Assembly (NCBI GenBank): GCA_021824285.1
Contig: JAKAKZ010000006.1
Span: 1 to 45,120, forward strand
Source of the DNA: a bacterium
GTDB taxonomy: Bacteria; Patescibacteriota; Patescibacteriia; SG8-24
DNA length: 45,120 nucleotides
Direction: 5' to 3'
Shown: positions 19,804 through 24,608 of the stretch, one piece after another
Position numbering within the stretch: position 1 is the first letter of the stretch
Layout: each line of letters starts with the position of its first letter
Notes under the pieces: generated by a model
What the model saw: only the letters and a program-made list of their open reading frames with translations
Database searches by the model: none
What the model was told of the DNA's origin: nothing
Translations under genes and position numbers: made by a program

Positions 19804-19902
19804 ACTGGAAATGTGAACTCTGCCGCAGTTGACCCACGCGGTATCGTATGGCAGGCTCACTGAAGCACCTTTGAGCGGCGCGAGAATGCGCGGGAGTCGG
19901 TC

Positions 19903-20346
19903 ATGGCGCTTCGCGACGAAGCGGACTGGCAGGGCATTAGCTTCGTGAGCACCAACGTCGTCGGCAGCCTCCGCAAGAAGTCGCTGGTCGTGGACGGTTA
20001 CCAGTACGCCACCGAAGAGGAGGCGATGCTCGCCGAGATGCTGCTGCAGCAGGGGATTCAGTTCACGCCGAACGTTTCCTTCGGCATCGTCATGCCGACG
20101 CGCGGCGGGGCGACGGTCCCGTTCGTTCCGGACTTCATCTTCAACGGACGGGCCTACGTCTGGTCCGACAATGACGGCGAAATCCTGGTCCACGGTCTTG
20201 AGGCCAAGGGCAAGAAGGGAAAGACCCAGAAGGTCAGCCTCCTGTTCGCCCAGCGGCGGGTTCGCGTGCTGCTTTTGCGGAATCCGGTCATCCGTCGGTT
20301 CCACGATTCCGGCAATCCGTTGCCGCTCCGACCGTTCGTGCCATAG
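19903..20346 (+). CDS. Putative PD-(D/E)XK-fold nuclease, paralog A
   Basis: ATEEEAMLAEMLLQQGIQFTPN...VPFVPDFIFNGRAYVWSDNDGEILVHGLEAKGKKG...VRVLLLRN; PDF-x21-E-A-K; homologous along its length to 20510-21004. Confidence 0.7.
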   Translation: MALRDEADWQGISFVSTNVVGSLRKKSLVVDGYQYATEEEAMLAEMLLQQGIQFTPNVSFGIVMPTRGGATVPFVPDFIFNGRAYVWSDNDGEILVHGLEAKGKKGKTQKVSLLFAQRRVRVLLLRNPVIRRFHDSGNPLPLRPFVP

Positions 20347-20509
20347 CGCTCCTACTTGGGGGCGTTTTTTCTTTGGCCGCCGCGCGGCCGCTCACCAGCC
20401 GCCGGAATGCCGCCAGATAGAAAGGGCCGCCTTGACCGCTGCCGCCGCGCATGTCAGGCTCGGATCGTTCTTTCCATCGGCCTCGGTGAGGTCGGATCGG
20501 AGCTGTCTC

Positions 20510-21004
20510 ATGTCGCTTAGCGACCAGGCAGATTGGGACGGGATTCAGATGGAATCCGCGGCTGTCGGCGCGAGGACGCGCCGGCGCCGGTGGCGCATCG
20601 ACGGAGTGCAGTACGTCTCCGAAGGCGAAGCGCTGTTGGCCCGACTGCTCATATTCATGGACATACCCTTCACGCCCGACGTGCCCATCCTGCTTAGACG
20701 GGAAGACGGACGAGCACCCTCGATACTGTACGTCCCGGATTTCATCCTGGATCGGGCCGCCTACATCTGGAGCTGGCCCAACGGTCGTCGGGAGGTCATC
20801 CACGGGCTGGAGGTCAAGGGTTCGACCAGGCCTCTTCCCGGAGTTGGGCGGCCGGTCAAGAAGTCCTATCGGCGCACGTTGGGCAAGATCATCCGCCTGC
20901 GTCAGGAGCGCAACATCAACGTGCTCCTGCTCACGGACCGCGAAGTCAGGCGCTACTTCCGTCACGGCCGCTTGCCGTTGCGCCCCCTGCCCGAGGCCCG
21001 GTGA
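20510..21004 (+). CDS. Putative PD-(D/E)XK-fold nuclease, paralog B
   Basis: ATG 20510 with GGAG site; VSEGEALLARLLIFMDIPFTPD...ILYVPDFILDRAAYIWSWPNGRREVIHGLEVKGSTR...INVLLLTDREVRR; PDF...E-V-K; paralogous to 19903-20346. Track start 20171 lies inside paralog A. Confidence 0.7.
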   Translation: MSLSDQADWDGIQMESAAVGARTRRRRWRIDGVQYVSEGEALLARLLIFMDIPFTPDVPILLRREDGRAPSILYVPDFILDRAAYIWSWPNGRREVIHGLEVKGSTRPLPGVGRPVKKSYRRTLGKIIRLRQERNINVLLLTDREVRRYFRHGRLPLRPLPEAR

Positions 21005-21022: not shown

Positions 21023-21049
21023 AAACCCCGCCGTCGCCGGCGGGGTTTT
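21023..21049 (+). terminator. Intrinsic terminator after paralog B
   Basis: aaaccccgccg-tcgc-cggcggggttt, 11-bp stem followed by T. Confidence 0.85.
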
Positions 21050-21117: not shown

Positions 21118-21489
21118 TCAGCCGGTAAGGTGCTTCCGGATCGTGGACACGAGGTGGTCGATGTCGAAGGGCTTCTTGATGACCTCGTTGATGTCCCGCA
21201 GGTTCTCGGAACCGTCGAACGCCTTGCCGGTCATCAGCACGATCGGCTTCTTGAAGCCGTGGTCGCGCAGCCGCAGGGCCAGGCCGATGCCGTCGAGGGC
21301 GTCGGGCGGCATCTGCAGGTCGGTGAGCACCAGGTCGGGTTCGAAACCACCGTGCGCGACGAGGTGCAGGGCGGCGGTCGGCCCATCGGCCGTGCAGACC
21401 GTCACGTCGGTCAGGGACATCTTCAGCACGCGCTCGATGACGAGGCGCAACGAGTGCTCGTCGTCGACGACGAGGATGTTCAAAGCCAT
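21118..21489 (-). CDS. Single-domain response regulator (CheY-like receiver)
   Basis: ILVVDDEHSLRLVIERVL; phosphoacceptor region PDLVLTDLQMP; PIVLMTGKAFDG; INEVIKKPFDIDHLV; no output domain. Confidence 0.93.
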   Translation of the reverse strand: MALNILVVDDEHSLRLVIERVLKMSLTDVTVCTADGPTAALHLVAHGGFEPDLVLTDLQMPPDALDGIGLALRLRDHGFKKPIVLMTGKAFDGSENLRDINEVIKKPFDIDHLVSTIRKHLTG

Positions 21490-21593: not shown

Positions 21594-24500
21594 GTGCCGC
21601 CCAAATCCAAGTCAGCCGCCGAGCCGAATAAGGCGCAAAACGCCGCCGAGGCGGAAAACCCGCTATTCGCTGGCCTCAATGAGGCACAGCACCGCGCGGT
21701 CCTGCATGGGCAGGGGCCGCTCTTGATCGTTGCCGGAGCCGGCACAGGCAAGACCACGGTCATCACGCGCCGCATCGCCTGGCTCATCACGAGCGGCCGG
21801 GCCAAATCCGACGAGATTCTGGCGCTTACTTTCACCGATAAGGCGGCCGGTGAAATGACTGAACGCGTGGAAACGCTGCTGCCGCTCGGTTACGTGGACC
21901 TGTGGGTCTCGACTTTCCACGCTTTCTGCCAGCGTCTCCTCGCCGAGCACGCGCTCGACATCGGCCTGCCCACGGAGTTCCGGCTGCTGGGGGGTACGGA
22001 TGCGTATCTGCTGGTCCGTAAGAATTTCGACCGGTTCGCGCTCGACTATTATCGGCCGCTCGGCAATCCGACCAAATTCGTGCACGCGCTCCTGCAGCAC
22101 TTCAGCCGCGCCAAAGACGAGGCGGTCTCGCCGGAGGAGTATCTGGCGCACGCCAAAGAGGCGGCGCTCGACAAGGACCAGGCCCAGGCGGCGGAGGAAT
22201 CGAGTCGCCTCACCGAACTGGCGAACGCATATCATGCCTATCAGCGCCTGCTCTTGGACGAGGGAGTGCTTGACCTCGGTGACCTGCTCGTCGCCGTGCT
22301 GCGGCTTTTGCGCACACGGCCGCGCATCCTGGAAAAATACCGCAAGCAATTCAAGTACGTGGTGGTGGACGAGTTCCAGGACACCAATTGGGCGCAGTAC
22401 GAGCTGCTCAAGCTGCTCGTCCCGCCGGACGGCAATCTGGTCGTGGTGGGCGACGACGACCAATCCATCTACAAGTTCCGCGGCGCCTCGGTGGCCAATA
22501 TCCTGCAGTTCAAGAACGACTTCCCGACGGCCCGCGAGATCGTGCTGACGCGCAACTACCGTTCGCGCCAGAACATCCTCGACCTCTCCTATGCCTTCAT
22601 CCAGCGCAACAACCCGAACCGCCTGGAGGCGAAGCTTGCGGCCGCGGGCGGCGGCGCGGCGGTCATCTCGAAGCGCCTCGTGGCCGAGAACGGCGGGACG
22701 GGGGAGATCAAGCACCTGCATTTCATGACGCTGGAGCAGGAGGCTAGAGGCGTTGCCGACAAGATCGAAGAACTGAAGGCGGCGGCCAAGGATCGTAATT
22801 GGAGCGATTTTTGCGTCTTGGTGCGCTCCAATTCAGGAGCCGACGATTTCAGCCGCGAGTTTCAGCGGCGCGGCATCCCGTTTCAGTTTCTGGCGCTTAA
22901 GGGACTGTACGCCAAGCCGGTGGTCATGGATTGCCTGGCCTGGTTCCGCCTGCTTGATGATCGCCACGAGAGCAGCGCCATGTACCGCCTGCTGTCTTCG
23001 CCGCCATATCGCATCGAGGGAAGCGACCTTGTCGCCCTGGCGCATGAGGCGGCCAAGAAAGCCGAATCCATCTACGAAGTGTCGCGGCGGCACGCTGTCT
23101 TACCGGGGCTTTCCGCCGCCACCCGCGGCCAGCTCGACCGCCTGTTGGCGCAGGTCGAGGCACACACGCAGCTGGCCCGCGACCGAAGCGTCAGCGAGCT
23201 CCTCGTGAAGTTTCTCTATGACTCTGGCTACATGGAGGAATTCACCCACGACGATTCGCAGGATGCGCGCGAGCAGGTTTCGTACCTGAAACAGCTCCTG
23301 GAGCGCATCCGCCGCTTCGAGCTCGGCCACGAGGAACCGACCCTGCGTCACTTCATGGAGGAGTTTGCCCTGGAGCGAGAATCAGGCGAGGAAGGCGGGC
23401 TGTCTTTCGACGCCGAATCCGGTCCGGACATGGTGCGCATCATGACCGTACATGCGGCCAAAGGTCTGGAGTTCCCGTTCGTCTTCGTGGTCAACATGGT
23501 GGACAAGCGGTTTCCGACCGTGGCGCGGGGCGGCGGCATCGACTTGCCGGACGCGTTGACCAAGGAGATCGTGCCGGAGGGGGACGTGCATCTCGAGGAG
23601 GAACGCCGGCTGATGTACGTGGCCATGACCCGCGCCAAGGAGGGGCTTTACTTCACTTCCGCCGACGATTACGGCGGCAAGACCAAGAAGAAGCTGTCGC
23701 GCTTCATCCTGGAGCTGGGCTTCGAGAAGCCGGCGGGAGCGGTCGCGCCGGAAGTGGCACTCGCGCCGCTCGCTGCCGCGCCGGTCGCCAAGCGTCCGGA
23801 CTACGAACTGCCGCCCTACGTCAGCTTCACTCAGCTCGCGGCCTACGACAAATGCCCGTTGCAGTACAAGTTCGCCCACGTCATCCGCATCCCGGTCTTC
23901 GGCAAGCCGCAGTTGAGCTTCGGCAAGACCATCCACGCCACATTGGAAAAATTTCTCAAGGAGCTGTCCCAGCGCCGCGCCGCGGCGCAGGGTTCGCTCT
24001 TCGGCGGGCCGGAGGCCGCGCCGGCCGGCGCCGGTCAGCTGCCGGTCTCGCGCGACGAGCTCCTGGAGATGTATGCCGCCGCCTGGCAGGACGATTGGTA
24101 TCCCGACAAGCCGACCAAGGAGTCCTACCGCAAGAAGGGCCGCGAACTTCTCGAACGGTTTTACGCGCAGGCCGAGCAGGAACGGCCCGACCCGCTTTAT
24201 CTGGAAAAGGATTTCACGCTGAAAGTCGGTGCGCATTCCATCCGCGGCAAGATTGACCGTATCGACCGGCTGCCGGACGGTCCGGACAAGGACCAGGTCG
24301 AGATCCTGGACTACAAGACCGGCACGCCCAAGGAGGATGGCGAGCTGCGGCCCGAAGACAAGCGGCAGCTGCTCCTGTACCAGGCGGCGGTCGCCCGCCT
24401 GTTCGGCCTCAAGCCGGTGCGATTGACCTATCATTACCTGGAAGACGGTTCTCGGGTAAGCTTCTTGGGTACGGACAAGGATCTCACCAAATTCGATCAG

Positions 24501-24608
24501 GAGCTGGAGGACCAGATCGGGCGCATTAAAGGAGGGGATTTCGCCCCCAAGCCCGGGATGCACTGCCGGTTCTGCGATTTCGCCAATATTTGCGAATTCC
24601 GCGAATAG
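21594..24608 (+). CDS. UvrD/REP (AddA-like) helicase with C-terminal RecB/PD-(D/E)XK nuclease domain
   Basis: NEAQHRAVLHGQGPLLIVAGAGTGKTTVITRRIAWLI; VVDEFQDTNWAQYELLKLL; VVGDDDQSIYKFRGA; MTVHAAKGLEFPFVFVVNM; C-terminal YDKCPLQYKFA...EILDYKTGTP...CRFCDFANIC. Starts with GTG. Confidence 0.95.
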   Translation: MPPKSKSAAEPNKAQNAAEAENPLFAGLNEAQHRAVLHGQGPLLIVAGAGTGKTTVITRRIAWLITSGRAKSDEILALTFTDKAAGEMTERVETLLPLGYVDLWVSTFHAFCQRLLAEHALDIGLPTEFRLLGGTDAYLLVRKNFDRFALDYYRPLGNPTKFVHALLQHFSRAKDEAVSPEEYLAHAKEAALDKDQAQAAEESSRLTELANAYHAYQRLLLDEGVLDLGDLLVAVLRLLRTRPRILEKYRKQFKYVVVDEFQDTNWAQYELLKLLVPPDGNLVVVGDDDQSIYKFRGASVANILQFKNDFPTAREIVLTRNYRSRQNILDLSYAFIQRNNPNRLEAKLAAAGGGAAVISKRLVAENGGTGEIKHLHFMTLEQEARGVADKIEELKAAAKDRNWSDFCVLVRSNSGADDFSREFQRRGIPFQFLALKGLYAKPVVMDCLAWFRLLDDRHESSAMYRLLSSPPYRIEGSDLVALAHEAAKKAESIYEVSRRHAVLPGLSAATRGQLDRLLAQVEAHTQLARDRSVSELLVKFLYDSGYMEEFTHDDSQDAREQVSYLKQLLERIRRFELGHEEPTLRHFMEEFALERESGEEGGLSFDAESGPDMVRIMTVHAAKGLEFPFVFVVNMVDKRFPTVARGGGIDLPDALTKEIVPEGDVHLEEERRLMYVAMTRAKEGLYFTSADDYGGKTKKKLSRFILELGFEKPAGAVAPEVALAPLAAAPVAKRPDYELPPYVSFTQLAAYDKCPLQYKFAHVIRIPVFGKPQLSFGKTIHATLEKFLKELSQRRAAAQGSLFGGPEAAPAGAGQLPVSRDELLEMYAAAWQDDWYPDKPTKESYRKKGRELLERFYAQAEQERPDPLYLEKDFTLKVGAHSIRGKIDRIDRLPDGPDKDQVEILDYKTGTPKEDGELRPEDKRQLLLYQAAVARLFGLKPVRLTYHYLEDGSRVSFLGTDKDLTKFDQELEDQIGRIKGGDFAPKPGMHCRFCDFANICEFRE

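Follow-up and report, generated by a model that had tools for sequence, protein, structure and literature searches.

The nucleases described so far that come closest to the proteins studied here belong to the PD-(D/E)XK superfamily, for which a common core has been defined (PMC1913061). T7 endonuclease I, a domain-swapped dimer, is a phage nuclease of Holliday junctions and branched DNA. DUF1064 (PF06356), a phage family of the PD-(D/E)XK type, is related to TnsA and T7 endonuclease I, and Vsr has FXH at its active site in place of (D/E)XK (PMC1189080). TnsA is found in the context of Tn7. The active site of I-Bth0305I is of the EDxHD type, and the TPD family (PF14811) presumably includes human C15orf41/CDIN1. 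Here we describe two adjacent genes on a stretch of 45,120 nucleotides (hereafter the window; contig JAKAKZ010000006.1 of GCA_021824285.1) from a small-genome bacterium of the Patescibacteriota. Their products are almost certainly PD-(D/E)XK nucleases with an intact active site. The best reading is that these genes represent a new, lineage-restricted and previously uncatalogued family of this known superfamily.

The tandem genes and their surroundings

The two nuclease genes, their putative signals and the genes that follow them are listed below.

19893..19896, + strand: putative copy 1 ribosome-binding site, GGAG (from direct inspection of the sequence; position accurate to a base or two)
19903..20346, + strand: nuclease copy 1 (P0001), 147 aa, with motif I E40, motif II P76-D77-F78 and motif III E100-x-K102
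20345..20366, + strand: terminator-like hairpin downstream of copy 1, with a T-run behind it (terminator scan)
20499..20502, + strand: putative copy 2 ribosome-binding site, GGAG (from direct inspection of the sequence; position accurate to a base or two)
20510..21004, + strand: nuclease copy 2 (P0002), 164 aa, with motif I E40, motif II P76-D77-F78 and motif III E101-x-K103
about 21031..21047, + strand: terminator-like hairpin and T-run after copy 2 (terminator scan)
21118..21489, - strand: single-domain receiver protein between nuclease and uvrD (Pfam Response_reg)
21594..24608, + strand: UvrD-family helicase carrying a PDDEXK_1 nuclease domain at its C-terminus; this downstream neighbour is conserved (Pfam UvrD-helicase, UvrD_C and PDDEXK_1; synteny)

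The original prediction had described two adjacent homologous genes, and their coordinates and lengths were confirmed: copy 1 and copy 2 are homologous end to end (BLASTP 89 bits, E 3e-28, 37% identity) and both keep the motifs quoted for them. The claims that each gene has its own GGAG site and terminator also agree with the sequence, in which a GGAG precedes each ATG by a few bases and a hairpin with a T-run follows each stop codon. Terminator-like sites were found six times on both strands, compared with 1.4 expected in shuffles. The mechanical ORF list puts the start of copy 2 earlier, at 20171. Both genes have a GC content of 0.63-0.64 and a GC3 of 0.80-0.85, matching the neighbouring genes.

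In an imperfect direct repeat of 26 bases, one unit precedes copy 1 and the other falls within copy 2. The units are not in register with the genes, and the repeat probably arose by chance. The receiver gene is also present in G004, and G006 has a different receiver gene at the same place; it is not clearly part of the nuclease-uvrD unit.

Predicted fold, active site and family assignment

The AlphaFold2 models of copy 1 (pLDDT 93.2; core H38-49, E60-64, E70-74, E98-102, H109-118, E122-126) and copy 2 (pLDDT 89.4; core H38-49, E60-62, E72-74, E99-103, H118-134, E138-142) both contain the PD-(D/E)XK core, in keeping with the fold and complete catalytic set that had been proposed. We aligned 15 divergent homologues, which share 22-42% identity with copy 2. 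E40, D77, F78, E101 and K103 (copy 2 numbering) are invariant in 15/15, and P76 is kept in 13/15. Neither of the two outcomes that the original prediction named as refuting it was seen, as the predicted structures do not lack the core and the D, E and K positions do not vary in homologues. Another distant homologue, from G246, contains TEPDF and IEVK, although it was shifted at PDF when aligned automatically. From general knowledge of the superfamily, each copy would be a small endonuclease that cleaves DNA in a metal-dependent manner. Four residues would form its active site (copy 2 numbering): helix 1 provides E40, the segment following strand 2 provides D77, and strand 3 provides both E101 and K103. 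The second copy is a paralogue in which this site is kept.

Fold searches returned a wide range of nucleases with this core. For copy 1, the best nine PDB matches include the catalytic domain of I-Bth0305I (the best one, prob 0.99), NGO0050, a Pyrococcus repair endonuclease, AvaII, Bax1 and Vsr, and for copy 2 human exonuclease 5, TnsA and AddAB were matched. No Foldseek match to the PDB reached E 0.001 for either copy, so that these matches, being weak in E-value, are supportive of the predicted fold but not decisive. Among the best 50 matches to viral models were DUF1064 (a top match), Endonuclease I, TnsA-N, DUF559, Holliday-junction-resolvase and Vsr-type models. The viral search also returned homing-endonuclease models, and seven matches of any name were at E <= 0.001.

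Searches by sequence gave much less. Neither window protein matched Pfam, PHROGs or PADLOC, and NCBIfam yielded one chance match only (E 0.13). The members of the alignment showed only weak matches to Pfam and PHROGs. When solved structures were searched by sequence alone, no match to copy 2 was found. The PDB sequence search returned only T7 endonuclease I (E 1.1, not significant), and a wider profile led to chance matches. For hhalign profile comparison, an alignment of T7 endonuclease I was prepared with relatives collected from phage records. This comparison gave a probability of 89.9% (P 1.7e-6), while 30 column shuffles gave <= 1.1% and the reversed profile 0.3%. The same comparison with DUF1064 gave a probability of only 25%. 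TnsA-, Vsr- and DUF559-type matches do occur in the fold searches, where the original prediction had named TnsA- and Vsr-like folds, and T7 endonuclease I is the closest relative that was found.

Some divergent open frames in other genomes were also noticed. Those of G221 (L101:6364-7371) and G092 (L102:6168-7103) have 336 and 312 residues, respectively, with a nuclease-like N-terminal half. By eye, a second copy in degenerate form may make up their C-terminal half, and the ExK in the first half of the G092 frame also looks lost. G485 (L099:6334-6792) and G063 (L100:5349-5825) form a second subfamily located away from uvrD, with the pattern YDSxLEARMAxxL ... T[VL]DF ... xExKG ... WEREG.

Distribution, inheritance and linkage to uvrD

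Counting the window genome, eight of the ten genomes in this GTDB family carry homologues, as do a few others in the class. Of 383 genomes of the class, 15 were matched in the profile search. Among 191 phylum genomes that were sampled separately, only the window genome was matched; the single-protein genome scan gave no match. Six of the eight carriers in the family have one gene per locus. A genuine tandem occurs only in the window genome and its relative G007, which argues against the idea of a functional pair. In addition, G006 has two copies on two contigs (L036 = C71 and L037 = C62), each within an ATP synthase-nuclease-receiver-UvrD locus, with 84% nuclease identity, and this assembly probably mixes two strains. 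These copies are the closest allele pair, and their dN/dS is about 0.14; therefore, the nuclease gene is under purifying selection there. Both nuclease genes of the window are real genes, as the frame is kept in homologues of other genomes and this allele pair shows such a low ratio. No paper joining Uhrbacteria, nuclease and UvrD was found among the papers searched.

The congeners G008 (L038) and G009 (L051) differ in that only the former has the nuclease. The absence in G009 is clean, with similar flanks (71-83% identical blocks), and the matching blocks are separated by about 610 bases in G008 versus 100 in G009. The gene is dispensable, because it is absent from G009 and is found in only 15 of the 383 class genomes. 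A gene present or absent at a single fixed site between similar flanks would suit a free-standing homing endonuclease that is kept by cutting alleles without it, with its target near the 5' end of uvrD. The best PDB match of copy 1 (I-Bth0305I) and the viral homing-endonuclease models matched by fold would suit it too. However, the nuclease tree and the UvrD tree agree on the deep split. AU tests, whose p-values are approximate with only 5000 replicates, showed the UvrD topology to be compatible with the copy 2 sequences (p-AU 0.12 and 0.23) and gave strong rejection of fully scrambled trees. When copy 1 is taken with the first G007 copy, the UvrD topology is likewise compatible (p-AU 0.115); with the second G007 copy it is rejected (0.017). 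The nuclease trees have almost no supported inner branches, so resolution within the family is low and transfer is possible. Moreover, the proteins have no DNA-recognition domain beyond the small core, their active site is E/PD/ExK and not EDxHD, and their composition matches the host. Homing is thus rather improbable as an explanation.

The nuclease lies upstream of uvrD-PDDEXK in seven of the eight carriers of the family (the window genome, G002, G003, G004, G006, G007 and G008), and in the eighth, G005, the contig edge comes directly after the nuclease. In G002, about 2.1 kb and another open frame separate the two genes. Two other families show the same order, one with a gap of 42 bp (G246) and one with a single intervening gene (G039). 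The nuclease is far from uvrD in G046, and the two are on different contigs in G075. Where uvrD follows the nuclease, the gene upstream varies between ATP synthase/carbonic anhydrase, PHP and tatD. The UvrD helicase-PDDEXK_1 protein itself was matched in 53 of the 58 relatives searched. Part of the linkage may reflect an old chromosomal order, because the orders atp-CA-uvrD and metG-cvpA-tatD-uvrD are also found in genomes without the nuclease.

Among the originally suggested functions, this linkage makes the putative DNA-repair role likelier. One such role would be that of a Vsr-, MutH- or EndoMS/NucS-like endonuclease that nicks at mismatches or lesions and so starts excision repair, with the nicked strand unwound by UvrD. 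Linkage to a UvrD-family helicase fits this, as do the matches of copy 1 to Vsr and to a repair endonuclease of Pyrococcus, which are among its best PDB folds. On the other hand, Vsr has FXH (PMC1189080) where the window family has ExK, and so few carrier genomes ill fit a core mismatch-repair enzyme, which makes this role quite improbable. Replacement of the RuvC Holliday-junction resolvase was also considered and was rejected, as each of the 16 genomes tested has RuvC. Therefore, the nuclease is an accessory and not a replacement resolvase.

Patchy distribution, including presence or absence between congeners, would also suit the defence role that had been suggested. A solo restriction or defence nuclease acting against incoming DNA would be gained and lost in this way, and the tandem would be its diversification. 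Within the family, the nuclease diverges faster than UvrD (about 35-43% versus 57-67% identity to the window copy), and restriction-enzyme-type folds are among the structural matches, both in line with this role. However, PADLOC gave no match, no methyltransferase or other defence gene was identified among the neighbours examined, the gene sits at a conserved position among housekeeping genes and not in a defence island, and no relative was found in the phage or plasmid collections. A defence function is therefore unlikely. Similar evidence bears on a TnsA-like transposase subunit or other mobile-element nuclease, to which TnsA and the TnsA-N viral model among the fold matches would point: no transposase was identified among the neighbours examined, no related sequence was found in viral contigs, phage records or plasmid records, and the slot between housekeeping genes is fixed across genera. 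Synteny largely refutes such an element, which is highly improbable, and the suggested mobility of the genes did not hold.

Taken as a whole, we tentatively favor host-encoded, lineage-restricted, T7-endonuclease-I-like PD-(D/E)XK endonucleases that cut irregular or branched DNA in repair or recombination together with UvrD. Their most likely job would be to cut such chromosomal DNA during these processes; the resemblance to T7 endonuclease I suggests branched or damaged DNA as the substrate, and the gene linkage suggests cooperation with the helicase. The UvrD-PDDEXK helicase-nuclease may act in the same pathway, making the substrate open or accessible so that the small nuclease could incise it. 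A more specific version, which is somewhat doubtful, is a Patescibacteria-specific module of UvrD-PDDEXK and an upstream small junction or branch endonuclease, in which the duplicates are specialised for different DNA structures or are heterodimeric. Assignment to the superfamily is by itself a modest gain in annotation. Beyond this, a well-known nuclease superfamily gains an uncatalogued family whose active site is complete, and whose genes are anchored next to a helicase that is nearly universal in an uncultured bacterial class. Should the link to this helicase prove functional, part of a little-studied repair pathway in ultra-small bacteria would come to light.

Comparison with known nucleases

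TnsA, Vsr, I-Bth0305I and DUF559/NGO0050 share the common PD-(D/E)XK core with the window proteins in fold searches, and no sequence relationship to them was found in the searches run. Their active sites and contexts are also different: Vsr has FXH and I-Bth0305I has EDxHD, in contrast to E/PD/ExK in the window family, and TnsA belongs to Tn7, whereas only housekeeping genes were identified among the neighbours of the window nucleases. With regard to TPD, the distant homologue of G246 (L042:7445-8023, C11), which lies before uvrD as above, matches the family at E 1.8e-4, below the family cut-off, and the window proteins do not. The G246 homologue is a possible bacterial relative of the human C15orf41/CDIN1 nuclease.

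DUF1064 shares the layout DG-x-x-[FY]-x-[ST]-x-x-E ... [PA]DF with the window family, but its motif III is D-x-K instead of E-x-K. The distant member G485 matches the Pfam model of DUF1064 at E 0.01 (16.7 bits versus a cut-off of 24.7), and the window proteins have no match to it.

T7 endonuclease I is similar in size to the window proteins, and its E20, D55, E65 and K67 share columns with E40, D77, E101 and K103 of copy 2, in the same residue order. Both have Y-x-PDF and E-x-K-G, although identity is about 24% over 70 columns only. On the other hand, the Y-I-W stretch of the window family, its H-G-x-E between PDF and ExK and its C-terminal LLLS...LPL have no counterpart in T7 endonuclease I in the alignment. 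The window nucleases are host chromosomal genes, whereas T7 endonuclease I is a phage gene, and the window proteins, matching no Pfam model, are not filed as members of its curated family. Thus, the family is placed in the PD-(D/E)XK superfamily, on the side of T7 endonuclease I and DUF1064, as a member of neither curated family.
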